A DNA stretch of 64,000 nucleotides, taken from positions 1 to 64,000 of the forward strand of contig JAALGZ010000024.1 in the NCBI GenBank assembly GCA_015227615.1, written 5' to 3'. How positions within the stretch are numbered: the first letter of the stretch is position 1; every line of letters begins with the position of its first letter. This document shows, in pieces, positions 18,219 to 64,000 of the stretch. Source of the DNA: Labyrinthula sp. Ha. Its lineage: Eukaryota > Sar > Bigyra > Labyrinthulida > Labyrinthulaceae. The translations under genes and the position numbers were made by a program. A model generated the notes under the pieces. The model searched no databases. It was not told the DNA's origin and saw nothing but the letters and a program-made list of their open reading frames with translations.

Positions 18219-18425
18219 TGTTAAACGTAAGTTTTTATTTTATTATTTTAATAGTTAAAGTCTGGTTGGTATTTAGTTGAACTTGCTACCTTCCTTTCTC
18301 AGAACAAGCAGCTACCTTCCTCACTTAGAACAACTTCACTACCTTCCTCTTTTAGAACAACTAAATACAACAGAATAGTATTCACTTCAAAACAACTAAC
18401 CTCTCAACGCAAACAACTCTCAACA
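18219..18425 (-). repeat. 5' LTR of the copia element
   Basis: 207 bp direct repeat of 13820-14026. It is followed on the plus strand by the GATCT target duplication at 18426-18430. It would carry the promoter of the element. Confidence 0.93.
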
Positions 18426-18430
18426 GATCT

Positions 18431-20496
18431 TCTTTGACTGTTACTTGTACTCAGAGGAATGGCATTTTGAACCGATGGTGTAGATGTTGCTTTTCAAGAA
18501 ATTCACGTCAAACCAGCTGAGAAAGTTGGACAGTTATACCCGGTTAAAGAGCAGGCTGGTAAGATTTCTTCTACGAAAACTTTAGACAGTAGGGTTGATA
18601 CAGAAGTAATGGTAATTATGAGTTATAATACTAGTTTCCTCCATCTTGCCCGTACTCATTGGTTTATGAACTTAATTAATACAGTGTGTTTATGGTTCCA
18701 AAGAACTGACGGCTATAAAATATATTTTAAGACTATTCATTCTTCTAAGTGCTGATATCCGCCATTTTCGAATTATTTGGACCTTGTATTACAAAGTTGG
18801 AAACTGCATAGAAACGTTTGTTCACTCTAATGCTTGTTGCTATTTCCAACGAATTATATTTTTTCTTAGAATGAGTACAACATAATCTTTCCGGCTACCT
18901 AGTAGAATACATTTAATTCACAGTTGCAGCTAATCTTTTCTGGTAGAGGAAAAAATTAATGCAACAATCAGAAATTCATAAGCGTGATTTTTTATTTCAG
19001 TCAAACTTACTTCTGAGCATGTGTAGCTAATAATGTCTGATAAATGTTTTGGGTTTGAGGGAAAACATAATAGAAGGCCAGTTCTTGCTTTCCATTCGAT
19101 GAGTCGCTAATAGTAACCCATGTTCTAATCATCCTGATCCCTTCATAAGTTTATTAGTGCTGTATAGCGTAGACTGGAGTCTTCAACTCATCAGCGGGTC
19201 TGTTGATCTGCTTGAGATTTAGCCATATAATCTGCTTTATTAAAGAGTCTTCTAACTAATTACTTTCAGTTCCAGTATTTGGCGTTATGAGCATAATTTT
19301 TTTTGCTGTGTAGTTAATTTTCATATCCTTGACAGAATTGGCGAGTTTTTTTGAAAGATTTTTAAAGGACGCAATTATTTGATGAAAGTCTTCAGTCAGA
19401 GAGAAATGTCAAATGATGAAGAAGGGGAAGATTCTTGATCAAAATGCCAAATTAGAAATGGAAATCAGTGAAGAAATTTAAACGAAAAGAAAAAACTATT
19501 TAGTCAAAAGCATTGCATCAGAGAAGTGTTGAGGCTGGTTCGCAACCCTTTACCTTGAAAGAGTAGTTATTGAGTTAGCTATATTTACCAAGTTTCGTGC
19601 TTTTTTTTTTTTGAAAGCCTTTGTACTAATCAGTACTTTGTAAACCTGTCAGAAAAAGAAAAGAATAAATTCTATAGATAGATAGTATTAAGTAGATGGT
19701 GCGACTGGGTTAAACGATCAACTATCCACAGAGCACGCTGTTTGTGTTGTACTTTTTCTACTAGTTCGGCAAGCTTAAGTCTTTTTCGGGTTTAATTCAT
19801 AGAACAATAAGACAAGTCTGCGCTCCTTCTGTAGAGCTCTAACATATTACAATGGTTGAAACTTAATAGATTTTCTGGAGAAAGGTTTGTGTCTTGATAC
19901 ATCAAAGAGTATGCCGGTATATTCTTTCACACATAGGAAGAATTTTCTTCCCTTCTTTCAAAGAAAGTAAAAAAAAAACTTATGGTTTTGTTCTTAAAAC
20001 AAAAATATTTGTTTTTCACAATTGGTACTCATAAGCCAAACTTCTTTGCATCTAGAATGCCAAGAAGAGAATGTGTTTCTTTGTCATACACGTTCTAATA
20101 ATGCATTTATCATCTGGGTGTGAAAATATACAGGATCATTTCATGCCCAGCTGAAGTGACTTTTTCAGACAGTATAACATCTATTTTTGGGCAATTTGTA
20201 GTTCAACACGATAATACGCAGTTTCTATCGTAAACTTATGTACCAACCAAATAAATGAGCAGTAACAACATTACACAAAAGTCCCAATAAATACTGGAAA
20301 TTAACTTACAAACTGATACTGTGCAAATAGATTCTTATACCAGTACATTACCAGAAACTATTATTGATACCACTATCCTATTTCACTTCAAGGTTGAAGT
20401 AACAAAATATCAAGTGAATCATTTAAATGGAACCTTTTGATGTTGTCCTGGGCGTAAGCCGGGATATTCGTTATATCTTCAGGCATAAACTAAATC
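18431..20496. other. Intergenic upstream of the polycystin-1-like gene
   Basis: No coding signal is visible. The distal part may include the promoter of the polycystin-1-like gene at 20497, but no element stands out beyond A/T runs. Confidence 0.45.
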
Positions 20497-23400
20497 ATGA
20501 AGACCACATCTTGGTTAGTGTTAGTTTTATATCAAGTTCTGCAGTTGAATGGACAAGAAACGACCTCTTCTCCATCTCAAAGTGGTGACACTCCAGAACC
20601 CACCTTCTTCCCCACACAGATTCCCGTTGAGATAAACAGCCCCGGTTTTCAAAACACCCTGTCCCCGACTGTTATATTGGGCACTGACTCTCCATCCCCA
20701 GTACCCACTCCTTCACCTACCTTCAGGCCTTCTGCAAGCCCCACTGCAGTTGCACAGAGTTTCACAGTAGATCCACAATTATACGCAGAGATCCACATTT
20801 CTTTTCCTACACCACCTGATTACGTATTTTCGCAGATAAACAGTTGTTCCGTTCTGACAATTAGGTACACTGAGAATTTGGATGCTATACCGTCGACAAC
20901 GTTTCCCCTGATCTTTTGTATTGGCGACCTTGTGTCTCAAACTGAGGAAGAGACTGTAATTTCTTGGTATGGAAGAGCTAATCCGTTTTACAATTTCAGT
21001 TCTGATGTTTTGTATAGTGTTCAAATTAATGACCCATCAATTTTACCAATTTCTTCAGAGGTGGTTGTTAATTTTACTTCCCCATTTGGCGGAAGATATG
21101 CTCCACTTTTGAATTCAGATCCGATAATCAAAAGCGTCTCGAACGCAGGAGTTGTAAATAATGCTTTACAATTAGATGTGGAAGTACAAGGAAGTATCAG
21201 AGAAATTGCAAATTATGGAACAAGCAGTCGGCGTGAGCTTGAAATATATACTATTGATGTTAAAGAATATCTTGGTGGTACAGATATTAGTGGATTTAGA
21301 ACTAGACCTGGACATGGTGCAACTCCTCAAGGGCCTGCAAATTTTATAAGATTTCGAATTAACACCGGAATTTTTTATGATTATGATGAAAATACAACTT
21401 TTATTTACCATAATGACTATACTGGTCAATATAGGTATATAGAACCTGTTCCTGAAGATTTATATGCAGCTCCTAATTTACTGAAGATAATTGCTGTTGG
21501 TTTCAATATTTTAGAGTTAAGTTTTGATCAACCAGTTGGGATTGTTAGTGAAAGTGAGTTTATTCCCTGCAATGAGTACATCCGCGTAATTCCTGTTGAT
21601 GGAAATTTGGAAGAGGAGATCGTTTCCTCAAGCAGTTTGTGTAAATTTGAACACGTTTTTTCACACGAGTATAAATTAAGAGTTACTATTAATGAAGAGA
21701 AGTTTAGTCAGTTCGCGAGTGATGAAGGATTTTATGAGATGCTTGTAGAAAGCGTACCTGAAAAACTTTTGAATGGAAGAAATATAATTGTCGGATTAGA
21801 CTCTCCAGAAGCAGTTAATGAAACTTATCTCAACTATGCTTCATTTTCGTCTGAAATTTCTACACTTATTTTCAATGAAAGTAGTATTGATATCGCTCTC
21901 CAATCTTTGGACAATGGTTCGATCTCCTTGATAATTAATTTTATCCCAGATATTGCTGGATTTGCAAGTGATGAAGATTGCCGGTTGGATGCATTTGTTC
22001 TTGAAAAATATGATTCCGTAAGTGGTGTCTTTTCAACTTTTGAACCTGATCAATGCAGCCAAAATGAAGGATTTTCCTTTATTTTTAATACCTCATCTTT
22101 TGTAAATGTAGATGACCTGACCGATACGACAAAGATTTATGGAATACAATTTCAAAAAAATTACTTTCAGGAGAGAAACATTGTAGTTCCAGAAAATTTC
22201 CTCTACGTAAATAAATATACTCCGAGTGATTTGTTACTGCTTTCAGCTACAGTAATTTCGAAAACGGAAATTGCTGTGTTGTTATCAGAAACTGTTTTTT
22301 TAACATCAGATGGCCCATTTTATTCTTGTTTCGACTTTTTTTCACTTGAATCATTGGAAACAAGTCCCGCATTAACAAGAAAACTCCAACGTTCTTTCGT
22401 GCCCTGTGATTTCGTAATTGAAGGAGAGATGTTAATCCTTACTGTAACTGATTCAGACAGCGATGATATTGATATTATTGACTTAAGTCTTGTAATTACC
22501 ATTGGTGGGGAATCATCTTTATATGGAATTTCTGATCCTTTTTTTACTACTCCTTTGAAAAACACAGTCAATGGAGATAATGTAATTGATGTGCAACCAA
22601 TTCAAACTGATTTTCCTACTGAATCACCATCTCCAGCCCCAACAGATGCTCCATCACGATATGAAATTTCTTTTGAAGCTATGATCGTGGATACCGCAAC
22701 TCGTTTTGCTTTGAACTTTTCTGATGACGTTGAAGTTTTAGGTAATTTAACTTTTCGGTGCAATTTGTTCTTTGAGTATCTTTTTGATAACGATGCGACT
22801 TGTAAGATTGTAGAAAACTTGGAGTTTCCCAGAAGTACTGTATTTATCTCTCACAACTCTACTTCTGTTGATTTTCGAGTAGCATTAGATGAACCAATTC
22901 AGTTTGCTTTGGTTGAAGAAAAGTTTTCTAGTGTTGGGGGTAATTATATTGTAGCCGCTAGATCTGAAGCTGATACTATATTACCTCCTTTCCCGGTTTC
23001 AGTAGATTTAGTTGATAACGTGTTGCGGTTAAACTTTGACAGATCTGTTAAGATTTCTGGAGTCGACGGAAGTTTTTATTGCATAGATCTGTTTTTTCTC
23101 TTTCCTTTTTACCCAAATACGTATGATTTGGGTGACATAATGTCAGATGGTTATATTTGTGAGATTTCAAGGTTGGAGGGTTCAATTATGGATATTAGCT
23201 TTGTAAATTTCGTTCCATACAATGGTGGTGGAGTAAATCATTATGTATCATTTGAGGAAAATGTCATTGGAAAGGTTCTTGATCAAAGTGGGATTGGTTC
23301 TGTATTTGGAGAAGTTTTCTTGTCAACGAATAATGAACAACCTTTTAGTTTTCTTATTACACTGTTATCTTTAGAAGAGATCTCGGTTTGCAATGACGAA

Positions 23401-26400
23401 ATTATCATAAAGATAGAACAGAATGGATTACTTTCCTATTTTTTTGAAGTTTTTTATACTGTTTCTGTACTAGAATTTAACAAAAGTTTTACCACCACTG
23501 GTTCAATAATAACATCTCTCTCATCTATTTTTAATGAACTAGATGAACTAAGAGAGTTTGAGGAAGATTATGAATATAATTTTGGAAATATAAGTATAGA
23601 AGGTGCAATACAGTATCCTTATGGAACATCTGTGTTTCAAACATTTGCATTCGAGTTTACTTACGTTCGAGATTTTGCCTTCTTGCCAATTATTTTTCCG
23701 GATGGTGATTCAAAAACAATTTACTCAGTTGAACCTTTTAAACTTGTTGCTGAATTGGGGACCCTTGGATTTGGATGTACTGAAGACTTTTTACACGCTG
23801 GTGGACTTAGCAATCTGAATTTTCACTGGAAGGTAAACGAATCAGAAGTTTCTTCCACATCTAATATATTTTCTACTACTCCTGGTGAACTTTCTCCTGG
23901 ATTATATAACATTCAACTTACTGTAAATCCACGTAACGATCTCGATGTAACAACTGGATTTGGACAAACTTTCAAATTCTTTCAACTTACTGTTCTTCCA
24001 ACTGCACCAGTACTTAAACTTCCTGCTGAAACTATCACAGTAAACTTAGCGAATGAAACCATAATTTCTGCGGGAAGATCTTGTAAACCAACAGCTGATA
24101 ATATAGGCTCTTGTGATATTTCCCTTGGATTCCTTGGTGAAGAGGGAAATATTGAAACAATTGAAGAATTAGGATTTACTTCAGAAGATGAGTTTGTTTG
24201 GTCTTGTCTCTCATGCGAAGAAGAGAATGAGGTAGTTTTTATTATAGAATCTAATCCTTTGACACCAATTTTGTCTAATCTGGCACCAAATCAAGACTAC
24301 GAAATTCAACTCGCCGTAGTAACCGCTGATGATAACATCGAAGTGGAACCTGTTAGTATGTTAATGAGTACTATTCTCTCTGAAACTTGTCTACTTCCAG
24401 AAGTTCAAATCCTGCCTATGGATCCAATAGTAAATGTTGGTGATTTTACTGTGTTTACCAGTATTACTGGAATTGATGTTGATGAGCTTGTTGTTGAGTG
24501 GAGTATATTTATTGATGGAGAAGACAGGGTTGAAATTCCCCGCGCAGAATTCATTTCTACAAGAAAAGATCTATTTGTTCCACGAGAAATTCTACTTCCA
24601 GGTGAACGTTTTTTATTTCAGGTCAATGTAACGAATATATGTTTCAATGAAACACTTTCTGCATCAACTGAAGTTAGTACCTTTATTAATTCAGCCCCTA
24701 GTGGTGGAGTTACCGATGTTACTCTAATTGGCTCGAACGCTTTGTTACCAGTATACACATTGGAAGCTTCTCTTTGGGTAGATGTGGAATTAAATATTCC
24801 TATGCAGTTTTCTTTTGAATATCTCTTTGTCAGTAATACAGAGTTTCAATCCATAGCAAACAATCCAGATGCAGAGTTTCTGTCTTCAAGAACCATTCCT
24901 TTAACAAGTTTCTCTTCAAGTACTATTGCGAGATCTCCTTTACCTCTTGCACCTGAGGGGTTTAATTTGGTCGTGATCAGTGTTGCTAGAGATTCCCTTG
25001 GTGCTGTTTCTCGGCGTTTTTTTTCTAATGCTGCAACAGCTATACCTCAAGTAAATCCCTTTGTCGATGAAAGTGGTGAGTTTTCGGTAAATGTCTCTGT
25101 TGGACAAGTCGAAGAGGTTCTGGATGAGGTTCTAAATTTAGGTCAACCAGAAAAAGTTGCCTCTTTGTGTAGTGTGATTGCATCTAGCCTTAATGACGCT
25201 AATTCTAGTGTTGACACAACATCTACAGATATTCGTGAGCTATGTTTTTCTTCAACTGCAAACGCACTGGATCAAATTGCTGGAGAAGGAGCTGTGGACA
25301 TCTCTGTTCTGAATTCTGTTGCTTCTAGTTTTAATTTACTTACATCCGCGGGTGAAGATCTGTCTCCAAAGGTTTTATCTGACTTTTCTTCAAGCGTGGA
25401 AAGTTTAACTCGTGTGCTTATTTCAACAGTGTCTGAAGGTTCAAGAGGTGAAAATGATCCTAAAGCTGGAAGTATACTTGATAACTCAGTAAGAGAGAAC
25501 ATATTCGGTGTATTGTCAAACTCAGTTAATCTTCTCTCTGTAGAAAGAAATCCGGTTACATCTAATTCTTCACGCTCACTTCAAGAACAGATTTCTCCTT
25601 GTGATATTGCACTGGATTCAGAGAATATTATGAGATTATTGAGTAATCTTTCAAATTCTGTAGTTGGTAATGGAGCACCTGCTTATGAAGTTGAAACTGA
25701 GAACATTCACTTTGTCACTAGTAGAGAGCGTAATCGAGACATCGGGAGAAATGGAAGACTTCAGGATTTTAATTTTGAGGGGACAAACAATAAAGTGTCT
25801 TTTGGTCAAGGTGTGAGTCAAATGGCTGAGAAGCTATTTCCTGACGACGAGGATGTGAATGTTTATGCTGTAAAATGGGACATAAATATTAGATGTGATC
25901 GCAGTGATATTTTTTTTCCTGATGGATACTGTCAGCCAAACATGAGCTATTCTGGCCCGTATAACAATGAAGCCTCTTCCATTTCCAAAACTATCAGTGT
26001 GGAAATTCTTACTCGAGGAGAGAAAATAGAAAAAATTAATGTTGAAAATATTAATGATACTGTTTCTCTGGTATTAGATGTACATGAGAGCTACTCTGAA
26101 GTTTATTTGAATGAAACATGTCAAGATAAAAGTGAATGCGAGATAACTCTTGGAAAGGAAACAGTTTGTGGTGCTTTTGCAGAGAGGTTGGACGACTGGA
26201 CTTCAGATGGGTGTGAGATTGTAACTGACGCACACACTCCTCCAGGTACAGTTTTATGCAACTGCTCCCATCTCTCATATTATGGTTCTTGGGAAGCATT
26301 TGAAAAAGATATTTTTGAAATTGGTGATCCAGTTGTTTGTGAAAGTGAGTTTGCCAATCTTCAAGCTTCTTTTGGTTTTTCACTGTACTTTTTGTTTTGT

Positions 26401-27927
26401 GGTTGTTTATTTGGTTGGGCAACATTAAATGACAAGACAGATTCAAATAAAATTATGAAAGCATCTGTTGCTCGCATTACACTATTGCGGATTATTAAGA
26501 AGCACAAGAAGAAAAAATATTTTAGAAAACTACGTGACGAAGCCTTCCCGATATTAAATGATGAACCTTCTCAATTGGTAACACACAGAGGAAAGCTTTA
26601 CTGGCTTAAGACCTTGTCGTTTAACTTTATTATGTCACTTCGTTATGAACATTCTATTTTTAGTATTGGAAAGTTTGATCCGCATTATAGTAAAGTACAG
26701 AGAATAGCTGTGTTTTGTACCGTTGTCTTGGCTAATTTTGCTGTTTCTGCTGTGTTTTATAATTTAGTTGTTGAGGGAGATGATTTACCCCCGTGGTTTA
26801 TTCTTATTGTTGGAGTTGTTTGTGCACTTTGTGTTGGTTTTCCTGTGAAAGTTCTTATGAAAATACTTTTTCGATCTACTGAGAACAAAATAGGATCTGT
26901 TAATGACATCTGCGCTAACTCCAACAAGATTTTGCTTCGTTTAGAAAAAGGCGATGGAAACCTCTTGCGTTCAGATGAAAAGTTGGTTGATAGCTACAGG
27001 CGATTGCTATGGGCATCTCAGTGGCTGGAACGAAATCAAGCTGCAAATTATTCTTTGAGTCAAGTCAAAAGAAATAGTGATAAGTCATTAGTTAAGAATG
27101 TTGAACCGTGGGATGAAGAAGAAGCAATGGTTGAAATAGAATATGAGGCGCCTAATAGGAGGACCATATCGCCCGAAGAACTGAAAACTATTTTTAATGA
27201 AGTTAAAGTTGCGACTGTTGAAGCAAGACGTGTTTGGCATAGTTCCCGATCCTTGAACAGCCAAACTCCTGTTGTAGAAGCTATACTCGTTGATGATCCA
27301 TCTGATGAAGAGAGTGCACCCGGTGAACGCGAGATTCCAGTTGCATTTTATACGATGGAATGGGAAAGAGTGATCCTTGCAGAGAGTCAAGGGGAAAGCC
27401 GCGTTAAGAGATTAGCAGCACTAATCGCGGACACCTCTACTCCAAAAGCTCGCCCAAGAACATCCTTATTGCCTAGTTCTTTCAATGTATTAACCTGGCT
27501 GCTCCTTGCAATGCTGGTTATTGGGCTTTCGTATTTGTCAATAGATTTTATCATTAGAAGGTTCCAGGACATTGCAAGAGAGGGTAAAGAGGATGGAGTA
27601 AAATATAGTTACAAAGAAATAAATGAAATTCGATACTTGGAGTCTGTCGAGTTGGAAAATTGGGTGTTTGCGTCTCTGATTGGGATTGCTCTGTCTTATC
27701 TTGTTGCAGAACCCTTAGCTTTGTTTCTTAGGTTCTTCTTAGCTCCTATGTTTCTTATTCTTTTTGGAGAAAGCAGATTTGTAAAAACTGAAAAGGAGCC
27801 TTTGGAGACTCAAATGGATAGGACGACACAAGCTCTAGAAAAAATGAGAGATCCGCCCTCTGTTGCAGCAAGATCTAGCGGGATGTTGCTGGATTTCATG
27901 GCAGATTTTATGGAAAATGTTCTTTAG
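20497..27927 (+). CDS. Polycystin-1-like receptor: REJ-type ectodomain, GPS motif, about five membrane segments, no channel half
   Basis: Single uninterrupted frame of 2,476 residues. A signal peptide (MKTTSWLVLVLYQVLQLNG) is followed by a Ser/Thr/Pro-rich linker to about residue 90 and a second at about 701-725 (PTESPSPAPTDAPS). The large ectodomain contains a REJ-like region at about 1300-1830. A GPS motif ends in CNCSHLSYY at 1921-1929 with paired Cys before it (CGAF...GC), so self-cleavage between Leu1926 and Ser1927 is expected from family knowledge. Membrane segments lie at about 1957-1978, 2068-2092, 2099-2126, 2328-2353 and 2387-2425 (the last could be two). Between segments one and two, EHSIFSIGKFDPHYSKVQR resembles the RPPRSRFTRVQR stretch before TM2 of polycystin-1. 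No PLAT domain is seen. The protein stops where polycystin-1 would continue into its six-segment channel domain. Likely role: surface adhesion or sensing receptor, perhaps partnering a polycystin-2. Confidence 0.87.
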   Translation: MKTTSWLVLVLYQVLQLNGQETTSSPSQSGDTPEPTFFPTQIPVEINSPGFQNTLSPTVILGTDSPSPVPTPSPTFRPSASPTAVAQSFTVDPQLYAEIHISFPTPPDYVFSQINSCSVLTIRYTENLDAIPSTTFPLIFCIGDLVSQTEEETVISWYGRANPFYNFSSDVLYSVQINDPSILPISSEVVVNFTSPFGGRYAPLLNSDPIIKSVSNAGVVNNALQLDVEVQGSIREIANYGTSSRRELEIYTIDVKEYLGGTDISGFRTRPGHGATPQGPANFIRFRINTGIFYDYDENTTFIYHNDYTGQYRYIEPVPEDLYAAPNLLKIIAVGFNILELSFDQPVGIVSESEFIPCNEYIRVIPVDGNLEEEIVSSSSLCKFEHVFSHEYKLRVTINEEKFSQFASDEGFYEMLVESVPEKLLNGRNIIVGLDSPEAVNETYLNYASFSSEISTLIFNESSIDIALQSLDNGSISLIINFIPDIAGFASDEDCRLDAFVLEKYDSVSGVFSTFEPDQCSQNEGFSFIFNTSSFVNVDDLTDTTKIYGIQFQKNYFQERNIVVPENFLYVNKYTPSDLLLLSATVISKTEIAVLLSETVFLTSDGPFYSCFDFFSLESLETSPALTRKLQRSFVPCDFVIEGEMLILTVTDSDSDDIDIIDLSLVITIGGESSLYGISDPFFTTPLKNTVNGDNVIDVQPIQTDFPTESPSPAPTDAPSRYEISFEAMIVDTATRFALNFSDDVEVLGNLTFRCNLFFEYLFDNDATCKIVENLEFPRSTVFISHNSTSVDFRVALDEPIQFALVEEKFSSVGGNYIVAARSEADTILPPFPVSVDLVDNVLRLNFDRSVKISGVDGSFYCIDLFFLFPFYPNTYDLGDIMSDGYICEISRLEGSIMDISFVNFVPYNGGGVNHYVSFEENVIGKVLDQSGIGSVFGEVFLSTNNEQPFSFLITLLSLEEISVCNDEIIIKIEQNGLLSYFFEVFYTVSVLEFNKSFTTTGSIITSLSSIFNELDELREFEEDYEYNFGNISIEGAIQYPYGTSVFQTFAFEFTYVRDFAFLPIIFPDGDSKTIYSVEPFKLVAELGTLGFGCTEDFLHAGGLSNLNFHWKVNESEVSSTSNIFSTTPGELSPGLYNIQLTVNPRNDLDVTTGFGQTFKFFQLTVLPTAPVLKLPAETITVNLANETIISAGRSCKPTADNIGSCDISLGFLGEEGNIETIEELGFTSEDEFVWSCLSCEEENEVVFIIESNPLTPILSNLAPNQDYEIQLAVVTADDNIEVEPVSMLMSTILSETCLLPEVQILPMDPIVNVGDFTVFTSITGIDVDELVVEWSIFIDGEDRVEIPRAEFISTRKDLFVPREILLPGERFLFQVNVTNICFNETLSASTEVSTFINSAPSGGVTDVTLIGSNALLPVYTLEASLWVDVELNIPMQFSFEYLFVSNTEFQSIANNPDAEFLSSRTIPLTSFSSSTIARSPLPLAPEGFNLVVISVARDSLGAVSRRFFSNAATAIPQVNPFVDESGEFSVNVSVGQVEEVLDEVLNLGQPEKVASLCSVIASSLNDANSSVDTTSTDIRELCFSSTANALDQIAGEGAVDISVLNSVASSFNLLTSAGEDLSPKVLSDFSSSVESLTRVLISTVSEGSRGENDPKAGSILDNSVRENIFGVLSNSVNLLSVERNPVTSNSSRSLQEQISPCDIALDSENIMRLLSNLSNSVVGNGAPAYEVETENIHFVTSRERNRDIGRNGRLQDFNFEGTNNKVSFGQGVSQMAEKLFPDDEDVNVYAVKWDINIRCDRSDIFFPDGYCQPNMSYSGPYNNEASSISKTISVEILTRGEKIEKINVENINDTVSLVLDVHESYSEVYLNETCQDKSECEITLGKETVCGAFAERLDDWTSDGCEIVTDAHTPPGTVLCNCSHLSYYGSWEAFEKDIFEIGDPVVCESEFANLQASFGFSLYFLFCGCLFGWATLNDKTDSNKIMKASVARITLLRIIKKHKKKKYFRKLRDEAFPILNDEPSQLVTHRGKLYWLKTLSFNFIMSLRYEHSIFSIGKFDPHYSKVQRIAVFCTVVLANFAVSAVFYNLVVEGDDLPPWFILIVGVVCALCVGFPVKVLMKILFRSTENKIGSVNDICANSNKILLRLEKGDGNLLRSDEKLVDSYRRLLWASQWLERNQAANYSLSQVKRNSDKSLVKNVEPWDEEEAMVEIEYEAPNRRTISPEELKTIFNEVKVATVEARRVWHSSRSLNSQTPVVEAILVDDPSDEESAPGEREIPVAFYTMEWERVILAESQGESRVKRLAALIADTSTPKARPRTSLLPSSFNVLTWLLLAMLVIGLSYLSIDFIIRRFQDIAREGKEDGVKYSYKEINEIRYLESVELENWVFASLIGIALSYLVAEPLALFLRFFLAPMFLILFGESRFVKTEKEPLETQMDRTTQALEKMRDPPSVAARSSGMLLDFMADFMENVL

Positions 27928-54533: not shown

Positions 54534-54829
54534 TTATTCAGTTAACGGCTAGATTTTACTGAAATTCGGGATGAAGAATAATATTAATTCGAGAGCAATC
54601 GCCCAAAAATACACACATTGGAAATTAACTGTTGAAATTATGAATTTAAAACAAAGCAGACGAAAGCAAGATTCAACCCGGTAAAAGCAACCCGAATGTG
54701 GTGTACTGCAGGGAAAAAGATCGACTTCAAAATTATGATCCCAACGACATTACTTAAGGAGAACAGATTCACCGAAGATAGTGTTTGAACCTCCTCTGCA
54801 AAAACGAACTCAGAAACTCTGCTTTGGCA

Positions 54830-57800
54830 ATGTTCTCCTATTCTCCTCTTTTGTGTCTGTTGCCTCTCCTCTTGAACGCACAAGAAATACAAAAAGAGGA
54901 ACATATTCTGCGTTCTGCTACCATAGAAACCCTTCAAGAAAACGAAACTGCTCACTTTTTTCTTGAAACAGACACTTCGAAATTTTCTTGTAGAAATTTG
55001 TTAACGGTTAGCTACTCGTTGGGAGATTTTTGTTCGTTTGATGAAAATCTACGAGTTGAAATTCATGAAAATGGAGATTTTACTGTGTTGGATGTTGCAG
55101 ATAGTTTATGTGGAGGATTTGGAGGAAGTGGGAGACAGCTTAGAACTTCTAGGCAATATGTATCAGAAGATAAGTCTTGCTTCGTTACATATAATGAGGA
55201 CGGGTTTCATGGCGCTATGACCCTTAGGAACAAGCAAACACAAAAAGTTTCTCTTGTGAGTTTTGAGCAAGTTGCATGCAGCTTTGATAATGAACTAGAT
55301 TGTGTTGAACTAGTCACAACTGGTGGCGAAGAGTTCATATCCCGCAATCTTCAAGGTGTTGTAGAAGACGATTTATCACCATTTTACTTAGAAAGGGCGG
55401 ATGATTCTTGTTATGAAGAAATTACCTCTTCTCTTCCAAATAAGATGTTTTTCGGTATTACAACAACAACTGGGTTTTCTTCCTTCTTTTCAGATGATAC
55501 GCAATTGATCTTACAACACATCGACAAGTTGATTGCGACGGCTAACCTAGTGTTTATTCAGCAGCTTAACTTCCGCCTAGTTGTCTCTCATATTACAATT
55601 TTGTTGGAAAATCCGGATTTTATAGGTGCGGTGAAACCGGCACAAGCGTCAAGCAACTCGTACTCAAACTCTGTAGTTCGAAACTTGCAAGAAGACAGTA
55701 TTTGGACAAATAGAGATTTCTCTGGTTTTAACTCAGACAGTCAGTTTACTTGCAGTGTCAGTACTGTAAAATTTAATGCCTTCAATGATCAAGCACCGCA
55801 AAGGCTAGTGTCTTCATGGATCCTCTTAGCTGGATTTTGTCAAGGTTTTGCTGGACTTGCAAGTAAACCTGGAATCTGCCAGACTAGTGGAACTGTAGGG
55901 TCAGCCTATGTTCCGCTGTTTTCTACATTCTACGCTTATAACTTTATACATGAAGTAGGCCATCTGTTTGGGTCTTCACACTATTCAGAGCTGGGTGTGA
56001 TGCAAGCATCTGGGGTAAGTCTTCGGGAAGGTGAAACTCAGTTTCCACCATCAGCATTAAACGAAATCTGTACCACGCTTGAGAGTAAAATTCATTTCTG
56101 CGAAAGAACTGATATTGAAGGTTTGAGGGCAGTTGAAATGTTTCCTGGAAGTGATGGATCGGGTTTCATGGACGGGGGACTTGATGCTGGATGTGAGTGC
56201 GACCCGCGAAATGAGTGCTGTCGAGTAGATTGTACGCTGGCAGATAGCAGTGTCACATGCAGCACAGAGTCAGGAAGTGGTTACTGTAGGAATGGGGCGT
56301 GCGAGGGGGCTAATGAAATGTGTATGTTGTTTCTATCGGGGATTGTTGACTATTGTGGTGTTGAGGATGATAACCCTTGTCAGGGAAAATGTTCCCAGAC
56401 ATCTGGAGGTGTTACTACCTGCTCGACACACTTCTCCGCCGAGATCAAGGATGGCACGAAGTGCTCTGTAGCCGGGGAGGACGGGCTGTGCTCTTTAGGC
56501 AGTTGCCTTATTTTTGAGAACCCGAGTGGAGGTGGTTTACCTCCAACAAACGCCCCTACAGAAACGAGTACTTCTTCTCCTTCTAATTTACCAACAAACT
56601 TACCTACCCCAAACCCGACGAGATCACCTACGAAGTCCACCAGATCTCCTACTCTAAGGCCCAGTGCAAGTCCGTCAACTTCTCCCTCACAGGCCCCTAC
56701 ACGCTCTCCTTCCACAGGTCCAACTCTAAAACCTACACTTCACCCATCACACTCGCCCACAATTAGACCAACTCTTAGTCCAACAAACTCACCATCCCCC
56801 CATCCAACAAGAAATCCTTCAGTTTCACCCAGCAGCAGCCCAACTATAAGGCCGACCAGGAAGCCATCTGCATCACCTACCTTGAACCCTACTTTGCACC
56901 CGTCTATTTCCCCAACACAGTTTCCGACGAGGTTTCCGTCCAGGCAGCCCTCTATTTCACCCACAGTAAACCCTTCTTCGCAGCCAACTGATTCCCCGTC
57001 TGAGTCTCCAAGTTTATCCCCTACATTTTCACCTTCCGGAGCTCCATCCCTTAGACCTACTGCGTCGCCGACCAATGAACCATCAATTTCTCCCTCTGTA
57101 ACACCATCGTTTCACCCAACCGTGTCGCCCTCCGTTTCTCCAACCGTGTCGCCCTCCGTTTCTTCAACCGTAGCACCTACTCTTAAGCCATCTGCTTCCC
57201 CAACTTTTTCTCCTACACTTGGTCCGAGTATTGCTCCCTCTGTGCGACCTACATTTCATCCAACCCTCCAACCAACAATCTCCCCCTCAGTTCAACCATC
57301 CATTTCTCCCTCATTTTCACCTACTGGAGCACCTACTGCTAGACCAACTGCCTCTCCCACACTTTCACCTACTTCCGGACCAAGTGTTTCTCCCTCAGAA
57401 GGTATTACTAATAGGCCCACGGGAAGTCCCACATCGAATCCAACGTTCAAACCTTCAATTTCTCCTTCACTCACCCCTTCAACATCACCATCGGTCTTCC
57501 CAACTTCCAGTCCAACAAACTTCCCAACGGGCTCTCCGTCCTCCTCCCCAACTGAATCCCCCACTCATGCTCCATCTAAGTCACCTGTTGTAGCACAAAC
57601 TGCAAACCCAACTACGAGCCCAAGCAATGCACCTACTAATACTCCCACACCTCAACCAACTAATCGGCCTTCCGCCTCCCCGACTTCTTCGCCATCAAAT
57701 CATCCTACAAGCGCACCTACCAAATCACCAACAAAATTTCCAACAAGCTCCCCAACGCTGAACCCTACGCAGTTCCCTAGTTCCCAACCAACAATTTCAC

Positions 57801-58873
57801 CAACAGAAGCTCAAACAATTACAACATCTTTACCTACTGTTTCCCCTACTCTGTCACCAACAAATTCACCAATTAGAACCAATAGGCCAACACAACAACC
57901 GACGGAAACCCCTACTAAAAAACCGTCTTTTTCTCCATCCCAAAGTCCTACCCAGGCACCTTCGAATAGCCCTACCGTCATTCCAACAAACCAACCAAGT
58001 GAAGTACCCACATCATCTCCTTCACTTCATCCAACGCTAAAACCAACAAATTTACCCACACAACTTCCAAGTACGGGACCTAGTTTCTCTCCATCACAGG
58101 CGCCAACTGAAGCTCCCACAGATCCTACAGCTAGTCCATCAACATCACCAACCCCAATATTTTTTACACCTCTTACTACAATACCAACAAGCTCTCCAAC
58201 TTCTGGTGAATTGGGCAATGGAACCTCCGAGGGTACAAGTTCAAACGGAATACCTGGTGAAGATAATGGAATGGGGGGGGCATTGGTTGTCTTAGGAGTA
58301 GCCGCTGCAACAACCCCATTTGTTTTGTTAGCAGCAACTCGATACACGGAGAAAAGGAAACATGAGAAGAATACGCGATTGTCCTGGTTAAGACAAAAAT
58401 CCTTAGCGAACGATGATATTCCGGGACTGCCTCTCGAAGGCCAAAGGCAAAGGCAAGCAACAGTATTCAGTCGAGCTTCAGCAATGCGGCTGCCAAGTGT
58501 CATGCGTCGAAAAAATGATACACCAAATTTTCCAGATGAAGAAAGTGAGCTAGAAGATGATTTGATACATTTTCAAGGGCAAACCCCTGCCAATAGGGGA
58601 TTTTTAACTAGAGTTTCTTCAATGAGAGTACCCAGTGTAAGAAGAAATGGCAGGAACAATGTTGATTTTTCTGAAGAGATGAGTAGTGATGAAGTAAAGA
58701 ATCACTATCGCGGCAAAGGACCTACAAAGGCCCCGCTACTGAGTAGATACTCTTCACCTAGATTACCCAGCATAAGAAGAAAGAAAAAAGATCCATTTGA
58801 TTTTCCTGACGAAATTATAGAAATGGATACAGAAACTGCTAAGAGAAAAAAAGAGATAGAAGACCTAATTTAA
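54830..58873 (+). CDS. ADAM/reprolysin-like metalloprotease with PT-rich stalk, membrane anchor and repeated tail motif
   Basis: Type I membrane protein of 1,347 residues, predicted zinc endopeptidase of the metzincin (M12-like) group that would cut extracellular or surface proteins. Signal peptide about 1-24 (PLLCLLPLLLNAQ). A pro-like region follows. The catalytic helix is HEVGHLFGSSH (374-384), the HExGHxxGxxH zinc site, with VMQ soon after as a likely Met-turn. A Cys-rich, disintegrin-like module runs from about 455 (CECDPRNECCRVDC) to about 560. Residues about 568-1123 are a Ser/Pro/Thr stalk of SPTxxPS-type steps, probably heavily O-glycosylated. Membrane segment about 1148-1170 (ALVVLGVAAATTPFVLLAA), then a basic and acidic cytoplasmic tail with three copies of a RxSxxRxPSxxR motif. 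The upstream TTG-led frame adds 15 residues that would spoil the signal peptide, so the ATG is preferred. One exon. Confidence 0.87.
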   Translation: MFSYSPLLCLLPLLLNAQEIQKEEHILRSATIETLQENETAHFFLETDTSKFSCRNLLTVSYSLGDFCSFDENLRVEIHENGDFTVLDVADSLCGGFGGSGRQLRTSRQYVSEDKSCFVTYNEDGFHGAMTLRNKQTQKVSLVSFEQVACSFDNELDCVELVTTGGEEFISRNLQGVVEDDLSPFYLERADDSCYEEITSSLPNKMFFGITTTTGFSSFFSDDTQLILQHIDKLIATANLVFIQQLNFRLVVSHITILLENPDFIGAVKPAQASSNSYSNSVVRNLQEDSIWTNRDFSGFNSDSQFTCSVSTVKFNAFNDQAPQRLVSSWILLAGFCQGFAGLASKPGICQTSGTVGSAYVPLFSTFYAYNFIHEVGHLFGSSHYSELGVMQASGVSLREGETQFPPSALNEICTTLESKIHFCERTDIEGLRAVEMFPGSDGSGFMDGGLDAGCECDPRNECCRVDCTLADSSVTCSTESGSGYCRNGACEGANEMCMLFLSGIVDYCGVEDDNPCQGKCSQTSGGVTTCSTHFSAEIKDGTKCSVAGEDGLCSLGSCLIFENPSGGGLPPTNAPTETSTSSPSNLPTNLPTPNPTRSPTKSTRSPTLRPSASPSTSPSQAPTRSPSTGPTLKPTLHPSHSPTIRPTLSPTNSPSPHPTRNPSVSPSSSPTIRPTRKPSASPTLNPTLHPSISPTQFPTRFPSRQPSISPTVNPSSQPTDSPSESPSLSPTFSPSGAPSLRPTASPTNEPSISPSVTPSFHPTVSPSVSPTVSPSVSSTVAPTLKPSASPTFSPTLGPSIAPSVRPTFHPTLQPTISPSVQPSISPSFSPTGAPTARPTASPTLSPTSGPSVSPSEGITNRPTGSPTSNPTFKPSISPSLTPSTSPSVFPTSSPTNFPTGSPSSSPTESPTHAPSKSPVVAQTANPTTSPSNAPTNTPTPQPTNRPSASPTSSPSNHPTSAPTKSPTKFPTSSPTLNPTQFPSSQPTISPTEAQTITTSLPTVSPTLSPTNSPIRTNRPTQQPTETPTKKPSFSPSQSPTQAPSNSPTVIPTNQPSEVPTSSPSLHPTLKPTNLPTQLPSTGPSFSPSQAPTEAPTDPTASPSTSPTPIFFTPLTTIPTSSPTSGELGNGTSEGTSSNGIPGEDNGMGGALVVLGVAAATTPFVLLAATRYTEKRKHEKNTRLSWLRQKSLANDDIPGLPLEGQRQRQATVFSRASAMRLPSVMRRKNDTPNFPDEESELEDDLIHFQGQTPANRGFLTRVSSMRVPSVRRNGRNNVDFSEEMSSDEVKNHYRGKGPTKAPLLSRYSSPRLPSIRRKKKDPFDFPDEIIEMDTETAKRKKEIEDLI
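56540..58190 (+). repeat. Degenerate tandem repeat encoding the SPTxxPS stalk
   Basis: About 1.65 kb of low-complexity coding DNA, with a loose 12-18-nt period (for example SPSSSPTIRPTRKPSASPT). Some blocks are near-identical neighbours, such as the doubled VSPSVSPTV around 57,120-57,165. The opposite strand gives long Gly/Val-rich open frames that are artefacts of this composition. Confidence 0.85.
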
Positions 58874-59662
58874 TAGTAGACAGTTTTGTTTCCATAGTTT
58901 AGATTCTTAGTAGTATAGTTTTTGTCAATGTTGTATTCTCTATTTATGTGTTGTTTGCTTTAATAAGAATATATCTTCAGTCTTTGCTTTCCTTCATTAA
59001 TAACTCAATTTCCCTAAAAACAAAAACTGCTCTGAATATAAAACTAGTTCCATTGCCAAAGTACTCTCAATATAATCTATACCATTGAGCTTTTTTTCCT
59101 CAGAAGTCGGTATCATAACAAAAATAAAGTTAGCTGGGATCTGGTTTTCAGAGACCAGCTTTTGGAATGCCATTTCCAATAAACGAAGCTGCGATCCATT
59201 GGCAATGAAGCCCAAAGAATATGTGAAGCTAGGAAATATTGAGGTTTTCCGTCCAGATAAACAAAATAAACAAGACGTGCGCAACCAGAACGTGTGAACG
59301 TAAAGAAATTATAAGCAGTAAAGTGTATTCTTGACAATAAAGTATCCAAATATAGCTTCAAAAAACAGTAAATAGTGAACGAAGACTTTCTTTATTCCAA
59401 ACTTAACTTTTATTACCACCGCTAACGGCTATATTTCACTATTCCTGAGTCACTCTTAATGACGTGTTCACGTAGTACTAGTTCCCATAAATCATAAATA
59501 CTCCAACTGCATAAATATGCACCCTTATTTCAGAATCAAGTCAGCTCAACTATTACACCTTTCGGAAATAAAGTGACACTTCCCAATAAACCCATTTTTA
59601 CTCAACACCACCTCCTCGCTTTATTGCCGTTTTTACTATATATCAACGTATAACATACCCAC
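58874..59662. other. Spacer between protease gene and retroelement coding region
   Basis: At 58,997-59,297 both strands are open: a minus-strand frame (MAFQKLVSENQIPANFIFVM) and its plus-strand complement, neither with a usable ATG for its full length. I cannot say which, if either, is real. About 59,578 downwards on the minus strand (TGTCACTTTATTTCC after a G-rich tract) might be the start of the retroelement's 3' LTR, but the second LTR lies outside the window and this is a guess. Confidence 0.35.
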
Positions 59663-60200
59663 TTATAACATAACTTCATCTCCTACTGACAACCAATCTT
59701 TCCTCAAATTATTATTTCTGGCAAACAAATCTAACTTCAACACTCCTTCTTTACACAAACTATCAATTCTTTCGTAAAACTCTACTGGCTTACACGAATT
59801 ACCTGCTCTCGTACCAAAGATAAGCTCTTTACCAAAAAATCTCGTTCTTAATTCTTTTGGAAATTCTCCCACAAGGCCTATAAGACATTCCTCCGTGCAA
59901 CTGCCAGTAACTACACCTTGTGATGAAACTATTTTTTCGTGTGTCGACATTTTTACCCACAGGAATCTCCCTAAGTGATCAATCTCATTTCTTTCCATTA
60001 ACTGCAAAATCATTTCTCTCTTTGAAGGCAAAGTCCAAATAAAAAACAGTACATTTCTACCCAATTTTTTCAAATTTAGAAGACCAATATCAGCATCGCT
60101 CATTGTGTTGTACACGATTTATGGACCTCTCACCGGATCTGAAGAAAAAATACGGTATGGTGGATCCATGGTAACTACTGGAAACCTCTCAGTGCAAGTG
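59663..60200 (-). other. MT-A70-type N6-adenine methyltransferase part of the Ty3-like element
   Basis: Part of the retroelement. The upstream edge carries FPVVTMDPPYRI, the DPP[WYF] catalytic motif of the MT-A70 class (METTL3/METTL14/METTL4 and ciliate MTA1 kin). Further along, YNTMSDADI, VLFFIWTLPSKREMILQLM, FLWVKM, SCTEECLIGLVGEFPKE, SCKPVEFYERIDSLC, LKLDLFARNNNLRKDWLSVG follow the family order: the YxTMSxxE block, the hydrophobic-Trp strand, WVK, the EHCLVGVKG block, the RKPDEMYxxIE block and the final KLELFARxxxxGWxSxGNE block. Substrate cannot be told from sequence: DNA 6mA or RNA m6A are both possible. The link to a chromodomain and a DNA-binding-like segment favours DNA or chromatin; this is inference. 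Confidence 0.82.
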
Positions 60201-61683
60201 GCCAGATAATCCTGAACCTTCATTCGACATGTTCTAGCACCCATTGGTTTTTTCCAGAAGTACATTCTCAACTTTCGTCCTATCACATCCAACTTCACCA
60301 AATTCGCAACAACAGCTTTTTCAAAACTACATTCCGCTACAACCAACTTGCTCCCCGTGAACTCGTTATCAACGATCTTCCTAGCTCTCTCTCTGTACAT
60401 CTCAATTTCCTTTCCTCTCTTCAACGACTTATCAATCAAAGTAATCACCACCTCCCTCAACTCCTTTATAGAACGAGACCATTTTGGTAAGCCATTCCAT
60501 TTGACCTGGCCTCCACGCATTAGCTCATTCAACTTGATGAGAACTCTTTTTAACCCTTCAATAGATAGGAAATTATACGCCTCGACCCCCTCAAACCGAT
60601 TAGCAGTTCTATCATTCTCTTCATGCATTCTAGTGTATCTCCATCTCATGAATATTCTCCGAATCAACTTTGCGTCTTTGTTCAAGGGTAGACTCAGGAC
60701 TCTATATTTATCTCCAAAATTGGTGATGTTCTGTTTTCTAACCTTCTCCAAATTCAACTTCAAACCATGGAACTCCTCTAGCGACTGCTTCCTAATATAC
60801 CTCTGGATTTTATTGTAGATCTGTTGTTTATTTTTACTCGGCAGATGCTTCCTGATCATTTCGAAGTTCCCCATTCCATACACTTTGATGCAGCATTTCA
60901 GAACTTCGAACTCGTAAATACTCCAGTTCCTTTGAACGATTCGACCGTCAGCCTCAACCACAATAAGATCCTTCTCTACTTTCCTGATTAAGTCTTCCAC
61001 CATCTCCACATCTCCTCGTTCGACTTTATTGACTTGCAAGTTCCCCCAATACACACTTTCTGGAAATGCCAGCCTTAGAAACTCCGTTACTTCTAGTTTC
61101 CATCCAGACGACGTTTTGCTCAAGAAATCTAGGACCATCGCAGGGATATCTTCAAACAGCGAGAACGCAGCCTCCCAAGTGTCTCTATCCATCGTGAAGC
61201 CTTTCCATCTTACCTTGAATTGGAACTCTCCACTTGTGGTTTTCCTTACATCTAGTATCTTCTCCACCTCCAAGCGATCATGGTCTAAGATACACACCGC
61301 GCGGGTATCTGCACTAGGCAAAAAGCTACTAGGTGCGTACGGAATAAGTAGGCTAGCATGCCTAACCTTTTCATTCCCCTCCAAATCCTTGATTTTGTAC
61401 AATGTGTTTCAGATAATTTCCACAACTTGAACTGGCCCTGTCCACCTAGGGCGACACTTATCCTTGTGCCCTGATTCAAAGCCTTTTTCAGAGAGTAGAA
61501 CATATTCACCCGGGTGGAAATTTATCGGTTTCAAACGCTTGTTCATCCTCTTGTTAGCTTGGTATCGGTATAGTAGCCCCTTCCTATATGCATCCTCCTG
61601 GTAGCTTCTTATCCTTTCATGTAACTCCTCCGATATTCTTTTTAGACTTAGGACATCACGTTCAGTTAATTGCAGCATCTCAC

Positions 61684-61748
61684 CTCCCATCAATGATACC
61701 CTAGGCTTCACTCCCATCAATGATACCCTAGGCTTCACTCCCATCAAT
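61684..61748 (-). repeat. 27-bp in-phase tandem duplication in the integrase end of the Ty3-like element
   Basis: The unit CTCCCATCAATGATACCCTA plus seven more bases occurs twice (61684-61710 and 61711-61737) and starts a third time (61738-61748). It encodes the nine-residue step SLMGVKPRV in duplicate. Confidence 0.93.
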
Positions 61749-64000
61749 AGTTCGACTGGGGATTTATTGCCTCCTCTACAGGTTAGTGGTGTAGAATTCA
61801 AGAAAGTTTGCACCATCAAAATAACCTCGCCCCATCGATTGGATGGCAATCCAAGTTCGGAAACAAGAGACCTCAAGTGTCGAAGAACCTCTCGGTTCTG
61901 TACTTCGACCGTACCAGTGGTCTGTGATATATACGCTGCGGTTACTCGATGAGTACCGTTGCAGCTCTTAAAGAAATCATTCACCATCTGGTTAACAAAG
62001 TGGCTACCTTGATCGGTAACAAGTAAAAATTCAGGCGCGAGATGAAAGTGCGCGTGCCACTTCCATAATGCTTTGACTACTTCTTTCGCTTCTACTTTCG
62101 GGCAAAAATGTAATAACGTCGTTCGCGTTAAGCTATCAACTACTGTAAGTATCCACCCTGACCTGTTGATGTACAAAAAATCACTATACAACACTTGGCG
62201 TGCTTCCCTTCCGAATTCCGTAACATTCAATGGCCTATTTATTATCAAGGAGCGTCGCTGGCAGTGCAGACACTGCCTCCTGAATTTCTTCAACGTTTGC
62301 AGAAACAGCGCTTTTAATCCCTTCTCAATGGTGTAGTGTTTTCTGATGAATTCAGCTTCTCGTTTCTCAGCTCCATGATTAAAGACCGCGTGTGCATGTA
62401 CTATGGCATATGGAATCAAATGTCTGGAAAGAACTATTTTTCCTCTCTCCCTCCATACTTCCTTCAGGTTCACATTTTCGAGCTGCTGTATCTTCAGAAC
62501 AAACAATTCATCCATCACCCCCCAAGATGCAGCAGGGCTACGATTCTTACTGGGGTGCCTCCCACTCACGTGGAAGCTGTCTACAAGTTTCCAATATTCT
62601 TCTTCTGCGCGAGTTACTATTTTTACCGGGATCTGCTCTTTCCCAGTAGCTCCTGGGTTCATCCAGGGGCTGATGATGTCTGGTGGGATGTTCCTGTAAC
62701 CAGGTAGATGGTAGACCTTCAAATTCATAGTCATGAAGTCAGCCGCCCAGCAACCCAGTCGCGCCGCGTATGCTTTTATGCTGACTTGTTTCGGCGACAG
62801 TATCCCCACCAGGTTTCGGTGGTCCGTGAACAAAATTGTTTCACGAAAATTATATAGCAGGTAGTAAGGGAACTTCTTAAGAGCCACCACTACTGGGAAC
62901 AGTTCCTTAGAACTGATGTGCCAGTCGAATGATAACCCCTTAAAGGTTCCGCTAGTCATGGAAATGATTCTAAAATTCGAAGCATACGGGTTCTCGGTAT
63001 TAACCTCCTCCTTTGTTTGCGCTAAAATTAAGCTCCAGTAGAAGTCACTAGCGTCACAAAAAATGTAAGTAGGTTCCAGGTGGTTATAATGACCCAGAGT
63101 TCGATGTAATGATTTTCTCAACACCTCTTTCAGTTGCTCAAAAGCTTCTCTCATCTCATCTGTCCATTTTATTAGCAGCTTCTTCCTCTCTAGTGTCTTG
63201 ATTTTCTCCGCTATGCTGCAGTTCTTTGTTATTCTGTGGCGTAATTTAGAGAATCCTGGTAGGATAGAACAAAGGAAATTGGCTGTGTAAATGAACTGAG
63301 CTAGCTCATGCACGTATCTCGGGTTCGCTCGAGATAATAGCTCATCTACATACGAACGGTCATACTGGTACCCTGAGCCATCCACTTTTCTTCCACAGAA
63401 GGTAGCAAATAACCCCACCAAGTGACATTTGTCCACATTCAATCGTAAGTTCAGCTCTTCTATCCTCTTCAAGTATCTCTCTAATATTTTGAATAGTTCT
63501 TCTAATGATCCAGCCATGATGACGGTGTCATCAATCCATTGCATGCAGTTTCTTGGCCATATCCCAGCCTTTACTAGCACATCGTAGATCTGGCGCATGC
63601 TAAATAATGATAGCGTGTTGTTCCACCCCTGGGGCGCTCCTTTAAAACTATACGCCACCCCTGAAGGTGTAGTGAAAGTGAATAAACGCCCTGTTTCCAT
63701 TGTGCAAGGCAAGTAATCAAAACCTGACAACAAATCAAAGGAACTAAAAAACTTCATCTCTCGGGCCCGCAACAACTGTACTTCTATTTTAGGTAGGCTG
63801 TTACGTACTTCCTGCGTTATTTTGTTCAGTGGGCGAAAGTCTACCACAAGCCTAAATTTTTTAGGCCCTTTCTTCGGTACAACCAGTACCGCCATTGCCG
63901 TAGTCGGATTATTGTTAACCCGAATGATGCCGGCCTTTAGCATCTACTTAAGCCTACGATCCAGAAATTCCTCCTGTTCGTAGCCTAGTGGGTGCTGGTT

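Follow-up and report, generated by a model that had tools for sequence, protein, structure and literature searches.

The MT-A70 methyltransferase and its genomic setting

Does the MT-A70-type adenine methyltransferase encoded near the end of this 64,000-nucleotide stretch of Labyrinthula sp. Ha DNA (the window) belong to a retrotransposon, and if so, what would the element use it for? Inspection of the locus reveals a complete Ty3-type LTR retrotransposon on the minus strand, whose whole insertion spans C71:59237-66619 and whose 3' part lies in the window (59237..64000). The first-pass annotation had placed the element at 59663..64000, which omits the 3' LTR (59237-59607, minus strand); its 5' counterpart, at C71:66248-66619, falls beyond the window. 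Aligned over 374 positions, the two LTRs show 99.2% identity, with two mismatches and one gap, and flank comparison identifies a TTTC target-site duplication at 59233..59236, with its second copy at C71:66620-66623. A purine-rich tract adjoining the 3' LTR (59608..59619, minus strand) resembles a polypurine tract, and such tracts also occur in the related copies L016, L018 and L027.

The protein-domain parts share one minus-strand reading frame in the Pfam scan. Ahead of the reverse transcriptase, a gag-protease frame ends in the window (63944..64000) and continues to C71:66151, with nearly all of its length outside; visual reading of this frame shows a zinc knuckle and an LLDSGA protease motif. 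There follow the reverse transcriptase (63416..63880, RVT_1 E 2.2e-18), RNase H (62741..63166, RT_RNaseH E 1.4e-15 and RT_RNaseH_2 E 2.6e-13), an integrase core (61931..62206, rve E 3.5e-7, 30.9 bits and thus just below the cut-off of 32.6), a chromodomain (61148..61270, Chromo E 1.8e-9), a p1-like Myb segment with a conserved extension (60632..60961, from its row in alignment A3 and a p1 query match) and an AMT1-like MT-A70 domain with a DPPY motif (59666..60190, upper end estimated from the position of DPPY). The Ty3-type enzymes, chromodomain and MT-A70 region that had been read from the sequence are thus recovered by profile. The annotation had allowed that no significant MT-A70 match might be found; the match at 59666-60118 scores 59.7 bits against a cut-off of 23.9 (E 4.6e-16).

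Three in-frame stops punctuate the window copy (63944-63946, 61409-61411 and 60119-60121), the last of which interrupts the methyltransferase. Programmed readthrough is not supported because the frames are clean in relatives. By our estimate, three stops may be rather many for a copy with 99% LTR identity, and chance could still account for them.

Class membership of the element

As in Ty3/gypsy (Metaviridae) elements, Pfam scans return the order reverse transcriptase, RNase H, integrase with a Ty3-type reverse transcriptase, and the closest solved reverse transcriptase is that of Ty3 (E 1.5e-16). All 15 scanned polyproteins have rve listed, seven of them above the cut-off. Up to E 0.1, these scans list no tyrosine recombinase of the kind that marks DIRS elements, so the polyproteins do not fit the DIRS pattern. 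The protease motif precedes the reverse transcriptase in L015-L018 and L027, and precedes the methyltransferase in eight frames of clade C (described below), among which only L012 and L014 span zinc knuckle to reverse transcriptase. Seven of the 20 frames show no such motif, three of them being cut off by the edge of the sequence covered. Neither self-priming nor canonical tRNA priming found a match in four copies: in a check of the element's own sequence, no TGG adjoins the 5' LTR and no self-complementary match of at least 7 bases was found. The window yielded no tRNA gene.

Chromo exceeds the Pfam cut-off in the window copy and in 8 of the 15 polyproteins, and is listed at E up to 0.1 in 13 of them. 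At what we take to be the cage positions, two of three aromatic residues are seen by eye in the window lineage and all three in L014 and L012.

Recurrence across the genome

Relatives encode protease, reverse transcriptase, RNase H, integrase, chromodomain, Myb and MT-A70 in one frame between LTRs, and two such frames run uninterrupted for 2061 and 2180 codons within LTRs flanked by target duplications. An LTR pair and target-site duplication enclose the methyltransferase in four resolved copies (the window copy, L016, L018 and L027, a set that leaves out L020). The search for further copies with the same domain order, proposed as a check in the first-pass annotation, places MT-A70 1.8-2.5 kb downstream of integrase on the same strand at 94 of the 150 integrase matches listed, with 1 and 0 in the controls. 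At least 353 places in the genome match MT-A70, fragments counted, and several element lineages coexist in this one genome.

A paired MT-A70 is missing at 56 of the 150 integrase matches listed, four of which were looked at. Among these four, L042 and L043 are Ty1/copia elements without MT-A70; so is a Ty1/copia element within the window itself (14046-18239), and L044 is a Ty3 element ended by the contig end. Separately, of 96 integrase matches with no MT-A70 partner in a first pairing, three picked for their long frames (L039-L041) all carry the domain, shortened within its frame in L039, so the missing partners there reflect the limited number of matches listed. In protein searches that depend on five-letter words in common, and so may overlook remote relatives, the element-like proteins found were gene models with the label eukprot and uniformly styled names; one matches L016 exactly across the searched region.

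A fused p1-AMT1-like module

AMT1/MTA1 is a eukaryotic writer of 6mA on DNA, and the MT-A70 family also includes the mRNA writers METTL3/14. Among solved structures the element methyltransferase ranks nearest AMT1/MTA1, ahead of METTL3, METTL14 and METTL4-type enzymes; for the window copy, the best solved match is MTA1 (E 2.4e-21, with METTL3 at 2.3e-9). METTL3 is second in every sequence ranking and ties by fold in one fold comparison, which is dominated by the methyltransferase part. The DPPY motif noted at first pass is present in the window copy and is shared by only 3 of 20 relatives, the remainder having DPPW (13), DPAW (2), DAPW (1) or DLPF (1). That is to say, 16 of 20 relatives have DPPW or DPPY, the exceptions being L014, L020, L023 and L024. 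The active-site aspartate is kept in all 16 aligned rows, and SAM-site positions are conserved. Where dS is at least 0.2, dN/dS of the methyltransferase is 0.05-0.10, which indicates purifying selection like that on reverse transcriptase and integrase, with a constraint resembling that of reverse transcriptase in two groups; the methyltransferase therefore probably serves the element.

The Myb segment finds its best solved match in p1, the DNA-binding subunit of the AMT1/MTA1 6mA complex. The A3 profile aligns with p1 over 97 positions (E 8.9e-21), and among the 60 rows listed the match extends well past the Myb core for just two proteins, the complex's p1 and p2. A Myb/SANT-like segment had been proposed earlier: as a p1 relative it stands, since a Tetrahymena p1 segment used as query matches C71:60722-60928 (E 7.8e-8), and as a generic Pfam Myb it falls below the cut-off in this copy (16.8 against 24.4 bits). 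A p1-like segment lies between integrase and methyltransferase in all 23 other polyproteins. With a p1-like DNA binder joined to an AMT1-like methyltransferase, the elements carry what is, by sequence, a fused p1-AMT1-like module. The earlier proposal, which combined a chromatin reader with a DNA binder and an adenine methyltransferase, thus holds in outline, and its last two parts can be specified as p1-like and AMT1-like, relatives of two subunits of one 6mA complex. No AMT6/7-type partner was identified within the element. The host genome has its own AMT1, a separate gene on C91, and two p1-like genes.

Origin of the module

The methyltransferase phylogeny suggested at first pass separates the elements from METTL4 and prokaryotic rows (96/89). 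In the first tree three changes were required. One group of elements, clade C (92/86), joins METTL3/14 with moderate support (88/83); once p1 is added it no longer does so, in a tree where the METTL rows are the outgroup. With host AMT1 included, the elements fall on one side of a branch with a support of only 50/82, which 43% of 200 bootstrap trees recover; neither constraining the elements to stay together (p 0.22) nor a single clade of elements and AMT1 (p 0.205) is rejected. The tree of p1 plus methyltransferase requires two changes; a single clade appears in 8% of its bootstrap trees and is not rejected (p 0.25). Element and cellular p1 split at 100/96 in an unrooted tree, and cellular AMT1 stands apart as a group in the tree of p1 plus methyltransferase (100/99). 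Both observations suggest that the capture is old and perhaps happened once; the trees demonstrate neither one capture nor several.

Proposed role and alternatives

We favor, at a probability of about 0.6, a role in which the fused module of this Ty3 lineage writes 6mA on element DNA; that it writes 6mA on DNA at all is likely. The module would be produced together with integrase, be guided by p1 and the chromodomain, and be active, perhaps with a host AMT6/7-type partner. Its target would then be adenine, probably in the ApT context, in DNA of the element itself, whether newly made or already integrated; the arrangement suggests self-labelling. The gain would likely be an active, silencing-resistant state for the copy, because in other eukaryotes the 6mA that AMT1 deposits is a mark of transcriptionally permissive chromatin. 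This analogy suggests an active-chromatin or anti-silencing effect, and we regard an active-mark role as possible but somewhat short of probable. More broadly, and tentatively, a whole Ty3 lineage may have captured the cell's 6mA writer (AMT1 plus p1), come to depend on it and used it to stamp its own new copies with the mark of active genes. If true, 6mA, usually regarded as a fixed label that the host puts on expressed genes, would also be an offensive tool of retrotransposons.

The module might instead be mainly a tether that directs integration through binding of p1 and the chromodomain to DNA or to active chromatin of the 6mA type, with catalysis secondary or lost. Its position directly behind integrase and chromodomain, the invariable p1-like domain and the altered catalytic motif of four relatives fit this idea, whereas the conserved aspartate and the RT-like constraint on the catalytic domain make it unlikely. 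Action on RNA, with m6A on the genomic RNA aiding export, packaging, translation or evasion of RNA-based silencing, draws on METTL3's second rank and tied fold and on the clade C grouping. That grouping is lost when p1 is added, AMT1/MTA1 outranks METTL3 in sequence comparisons, and the attached p1-like domain belongs to a DNA-methylating complex, so we consider this alternative improbable. It is more doubtful still that the module disturbs the host AMT1 complex by swapping in, or disturbs competing mobile DNA by methylating it: the host's retained AMT1 and p1-like genes and the coexisting element lineages would allow this, but direct evidence for interference is absent and a benefit to each copy is simpler. 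A host MT-A70 gene merely beside a retroelement, the annotation's own alternative, or an assembly chimera is ruled out for practical purposes by the LTRs, the target duplications, the long single frames, the like order and spacing downstream of integrase genome-wide, and the separate host AMT1.

Relation to known systems

Among solved structures, the catalytic and DNA-binding domains of the element are closest to the ciliate MTA1c/AMT1 complex (AMT1, AMT6/7, p1, p2). In contrast to that complex, the element fuses both parts in one retrotransposon polyprotein behind integrase and chromodomain. A methyltransferase is likewise joined to a chromodomain part in the bdelloid N4CMT, reportedly a host gene that came from bacteria. 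In Ectocarpus, the Sola1 transposon pairs ParB with a predicted N4C/N6A methyltransferase (PMC12477816), a similar joining to a DNA-binding part; Sola1, however, belongs to the DNA transposons, and its enzyme is of prokaryotic type. Chromodomains have been captured by several stramenopile Gypsy lineages (PMC5348765, PMC12477816). Such Ty3/gypsy elements (chromoviruses; Chronos of oomycetes; Ectocarpus Gypsy) share the RT-RNaseH-IN order and C-terminal chromodomain, with no p1 or MT-A70 domain named in the available portions of these two sources. Retroelements with other methyltransferases include DIRS elements with a Dam-like adenine enzyme and retrotransposons of dinoflagellates and charophytes with cytosine DNMTs (PMC5890265), the DNMT carriers including Ty3/Gypsy (PMC6338049). 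These are Dam-like and C5-cytosine families, not MT-A70, and the portions available name no p1 partner.

In keeping with the first-pass remark, which knew of no described Ty3 element with MT-A70, we found no report of one, nor of one with an added p1-like module, in the open-access literature. A survey published in 2025, covering 231 eukaryotic genomes and transcriptomes, describes MT-A70 families as relatively static after early duplications and, in the portion available, mentions no capture by mobile elements (PMC12695648). Here, the Ty3 elements of one genome contain hundreds of AMT1-like sequences, often fragmentary, that are fused to a p1 relative and strongly constrained where measured. 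They amount to a natural experiment on 6mA, with many divergent writers that come with targeting domains and in some cases have changed catalytic motifs, inside a host that has retained AMT1 and p1-like genes of its own. So compact a fused writer may tell which parts of the complex suffice for DNA methylation.

The window copy is a complete but interrupted insertion

Inspection of the minus strand confirms the array of domains that the first-pass annotation had read at 59663-64000, all of them present in one frame by Pfam: reverse transcriptase (RT; RVT_1, 2.2e-18), RNase H (RT_RNaseH, 1.4e-15), integrase (rve, 3.5e-7, slightly below cut-off), a chromodomain (Chromo, 1.8e-9) and the methyltransferase (MT-A70, 4.6e-16). 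The Myb/SANT-like part proposed alongside them falls below cut-off with Pfam Myb (0.0073) and is recovered by the Tetrahymena segment of p1 (E 7.8e-8), a DNA-binding subunit of the MTA1 complex, the eukaryotic 6mA DNA writer. The insertion is complete, with an LTR pair at 59237-59607 and at 66248-66619 of C71 (the window's contig extended beyond 64,000) that differs by two mismatches and one gap over 374 aligned positions and is flanked outwardly on both sides by TTTC. Three in-frame stops are present (63944-63946, 61409-61411 and 60119-60121), the last within the methyltransferase; together with the near-identical LTRs, these indicate a young but broken copy.

Elsewhere in the window are an uninterrupted 1398-aa Ty1/copia-type polyprotein frame lacking MT-A70 (14046-18239, minus strand), a 2477-aa frame in which a REJ domain and, weakly, a GPS motif are recognised (20494-27924, plus strand), and a Reprolysin-like metallopeptidase that ends in a long tail of PT repeats (54782-58870, plus strand).

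The methyltransferase recurs as part of the element

The MT-A70 module had been taken as part of the element rather than a neighbouring host gene, and this reading holds, as the module lies inside LTRs and duplications in the four copies with resolved borders and recurs downstream of integrase genome-wide. In locus L016 (contig C62), a single 2061-codon frame runs from protease through the final MT-A70 residues, ends 22 bases from the 3' LTR counting the stop codon, and is bounded by 700 bp LTRs (5 mismatches) and CCGT duplications. L018 has 2180 codons with a zinc knuckle in front, 360-bp LTRs with 0 mismatches and a GTGC duplication; L027 has 263-bp LTRs with two mismatches and a CATA duplication; the LTRs of L020, whose exact end was not located, align at 96.5%. 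Several copies thus carry identical or nearly identical LTRs, which points to recent activity.

Across the 50.8 Mb genome (153 contigs), all 150 scored MT-A70 matches (from 354 candidates) passed the cut-off. When the genome searches are pooled, some entered whole and others only for rows appearing new, the distinct MT-A70 places number at least 353 and are spread over 95 contigs; this count includes fragments and the host gene, and the surrounding element was checked for part of the places. For 94 of 150 scored rve matches (from 549 candidates), an MT-A70 place follows downstream, on the same strand and 1846-2493 bp away; as controls, an upstream MT-A70 was seen in 1 case and one on the opposite strand in 0. 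Seven unpaired rve loci were inspected: three are Ty3 elements with MT-A70 after all, three are Ty1/copia without it, and one is a Ty3 element ending at a contig end.

The Myb segment is p1-like

The general Pfam Myb model lists 5 of 15 polyproteins and exceeds cut-off only in L010, whose Myb region, compared with solved structures, is closer to p1 of the MTA1 complex (8.5e-10) than to telomere-binding Myb proteins (2e-4) or to p2, the other DNA-binding subunit (0.011). A profile built from 11 regions, the window copy among them, aligns with p1 over 97 positions (8.9e-21), and the alignment takes in a conserved stretch beyond the Myb core. SNAPC4 ranks second (6.8e-17), a sum over four Myb repeats of which the best reaches 7e-6; among the best 60 of 84 rows, only p1 and p2 match far past the core. 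The profile matches 23 of 23 polyproteins, always after integrase and before MT-A70 (an order taken from separate integrase, frame and MT-A70 searches for L039-L041), and in the 13 absent from profile building E is 2e-15 or better in a small sequence set. The Tetrahymena p1 segment alone also matches all 23 (5e-20 to 1.3e-4), a set to which the window copy does not belong. By this profile similarity, the Myb part of the elements is p1-like.

The host has its own AMT1, the catalytic subunit, in a single frame at C91:220353-221273 (320 bits; next match 151 bits), and two stand-alone p1-like genes. One, at C1:1284470-1284778, lies in a frame of 384 codons that also matches Agenet and, more weakly, Tudor, so joining p1 to a possible histone reader; the other, at C100:136003-136305, has 227 codons. 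An unrooted tree with 24 rows, from which L013, L019 and L040 are left out, separates cellular from element p1 (100/96). A METTL3 query finds host AMT1 first and a METTL4 query finds weak matches only, so that no METTL3 or METTL4 host gene is seen in the six-frame search, where introns could conceal one.

Codon comparisons indicate constraint

Nei-Gojobori comparisons, in which many pairs were saturated and gave no ratio, show the module to be under constraint at the sequence level. For L012 against L013, L019 and L036, dN/dS is 0.06, 0.05 and 0.07 in the methyltransferase, 0.06, 0.06 and 0.11 in RT (the last over 49 codons) and 0.05, 0.04 and 0.02 in integrase. Set against L034 and L035, themselves broken by 11 and 7 stops, the window copy has values of 0.08 and 0.07 in the methyltransferase, 0.09 and 0.06 in RT, 0.08 and 0.10 in integrase, and 0.07 and 0.07 in the Myb-linker. 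Pairs that have hardly diverged give noisy ratios (0.26 and 0.33 in the methyltransferase at dS 0.03), and the L014 group, without RT for comparison, gives methyltransferase ratios of 0.08-0.32 at dS 0.07-0.16.

A possible role in self-methylation

The analysis establishes the anatomy of the element, the kinship of its module to p1 and AMT1, and the constraint on that module. Excerpts of PMC12695648 describe AMT1 as a 6mA writer acting chiefly at ApT, p1 and p2 as DNA-binding proteins co-occurring with AMT1 only, and 6mA as found on permissive chromatin bearing H3K4me3. A fused p1-AMT1 produced along with integrase and chromodomain would probably methylate the DNA of the element itself, either ahead of integration or once integrated, and this self-methylation may keep copies transcribable. 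Alternatively, the module could methylate RNA, act in tethering, or interfere with the host complex.

Retrotransposons with DNA methyltransferases are already known, and the parallels named in the first-pass annotation are borne out by excerpts of PMC5890265 and PMC6338049: DIRS elements carry Dam-like methyltransferases, and dinoflagellate and charophyte elements carry DNMTs. The likeness is that of a retroelement encoding a DNA methyltransferase. The open-access literature searched yielded no description of a Ty3 element with MT-A70 and, above all, none of a Ty3 element that unites catalytic and DNA-binding subunits of a single host writer complex.

Lineages and variant anatomy

The methyltransferase tree defines clades A (with the window copy), B and C, which RT and integrase trees recover in part. 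Clade C is united in the RT tree (97/94); clade B is split in both trees and L029 falls outside A, though the joins are weak and the branches long. Going by this partial recovery, the module has for the most part travelled with pol, with exchange possible for L025 and L029.

All eight clade C frames (L010-L014, L019, L020 and L028) place an aspartyl protease motif immediately before the methyltransferase. The motif is absent from its usual place before RT in L012 and L014, the two of the eight frames that span zinc knuckle to RT. Of 20 relatives, four (L014, L020, L023 and L024) have a catalytic motif changed to DPAW, DAPW or DLPF. A canonical primer-binding site was not found after the 5' LTR in L016, L018, L027 or the window element; L016, L018 and the window copy share the leader TTGCAATATTG at this position.
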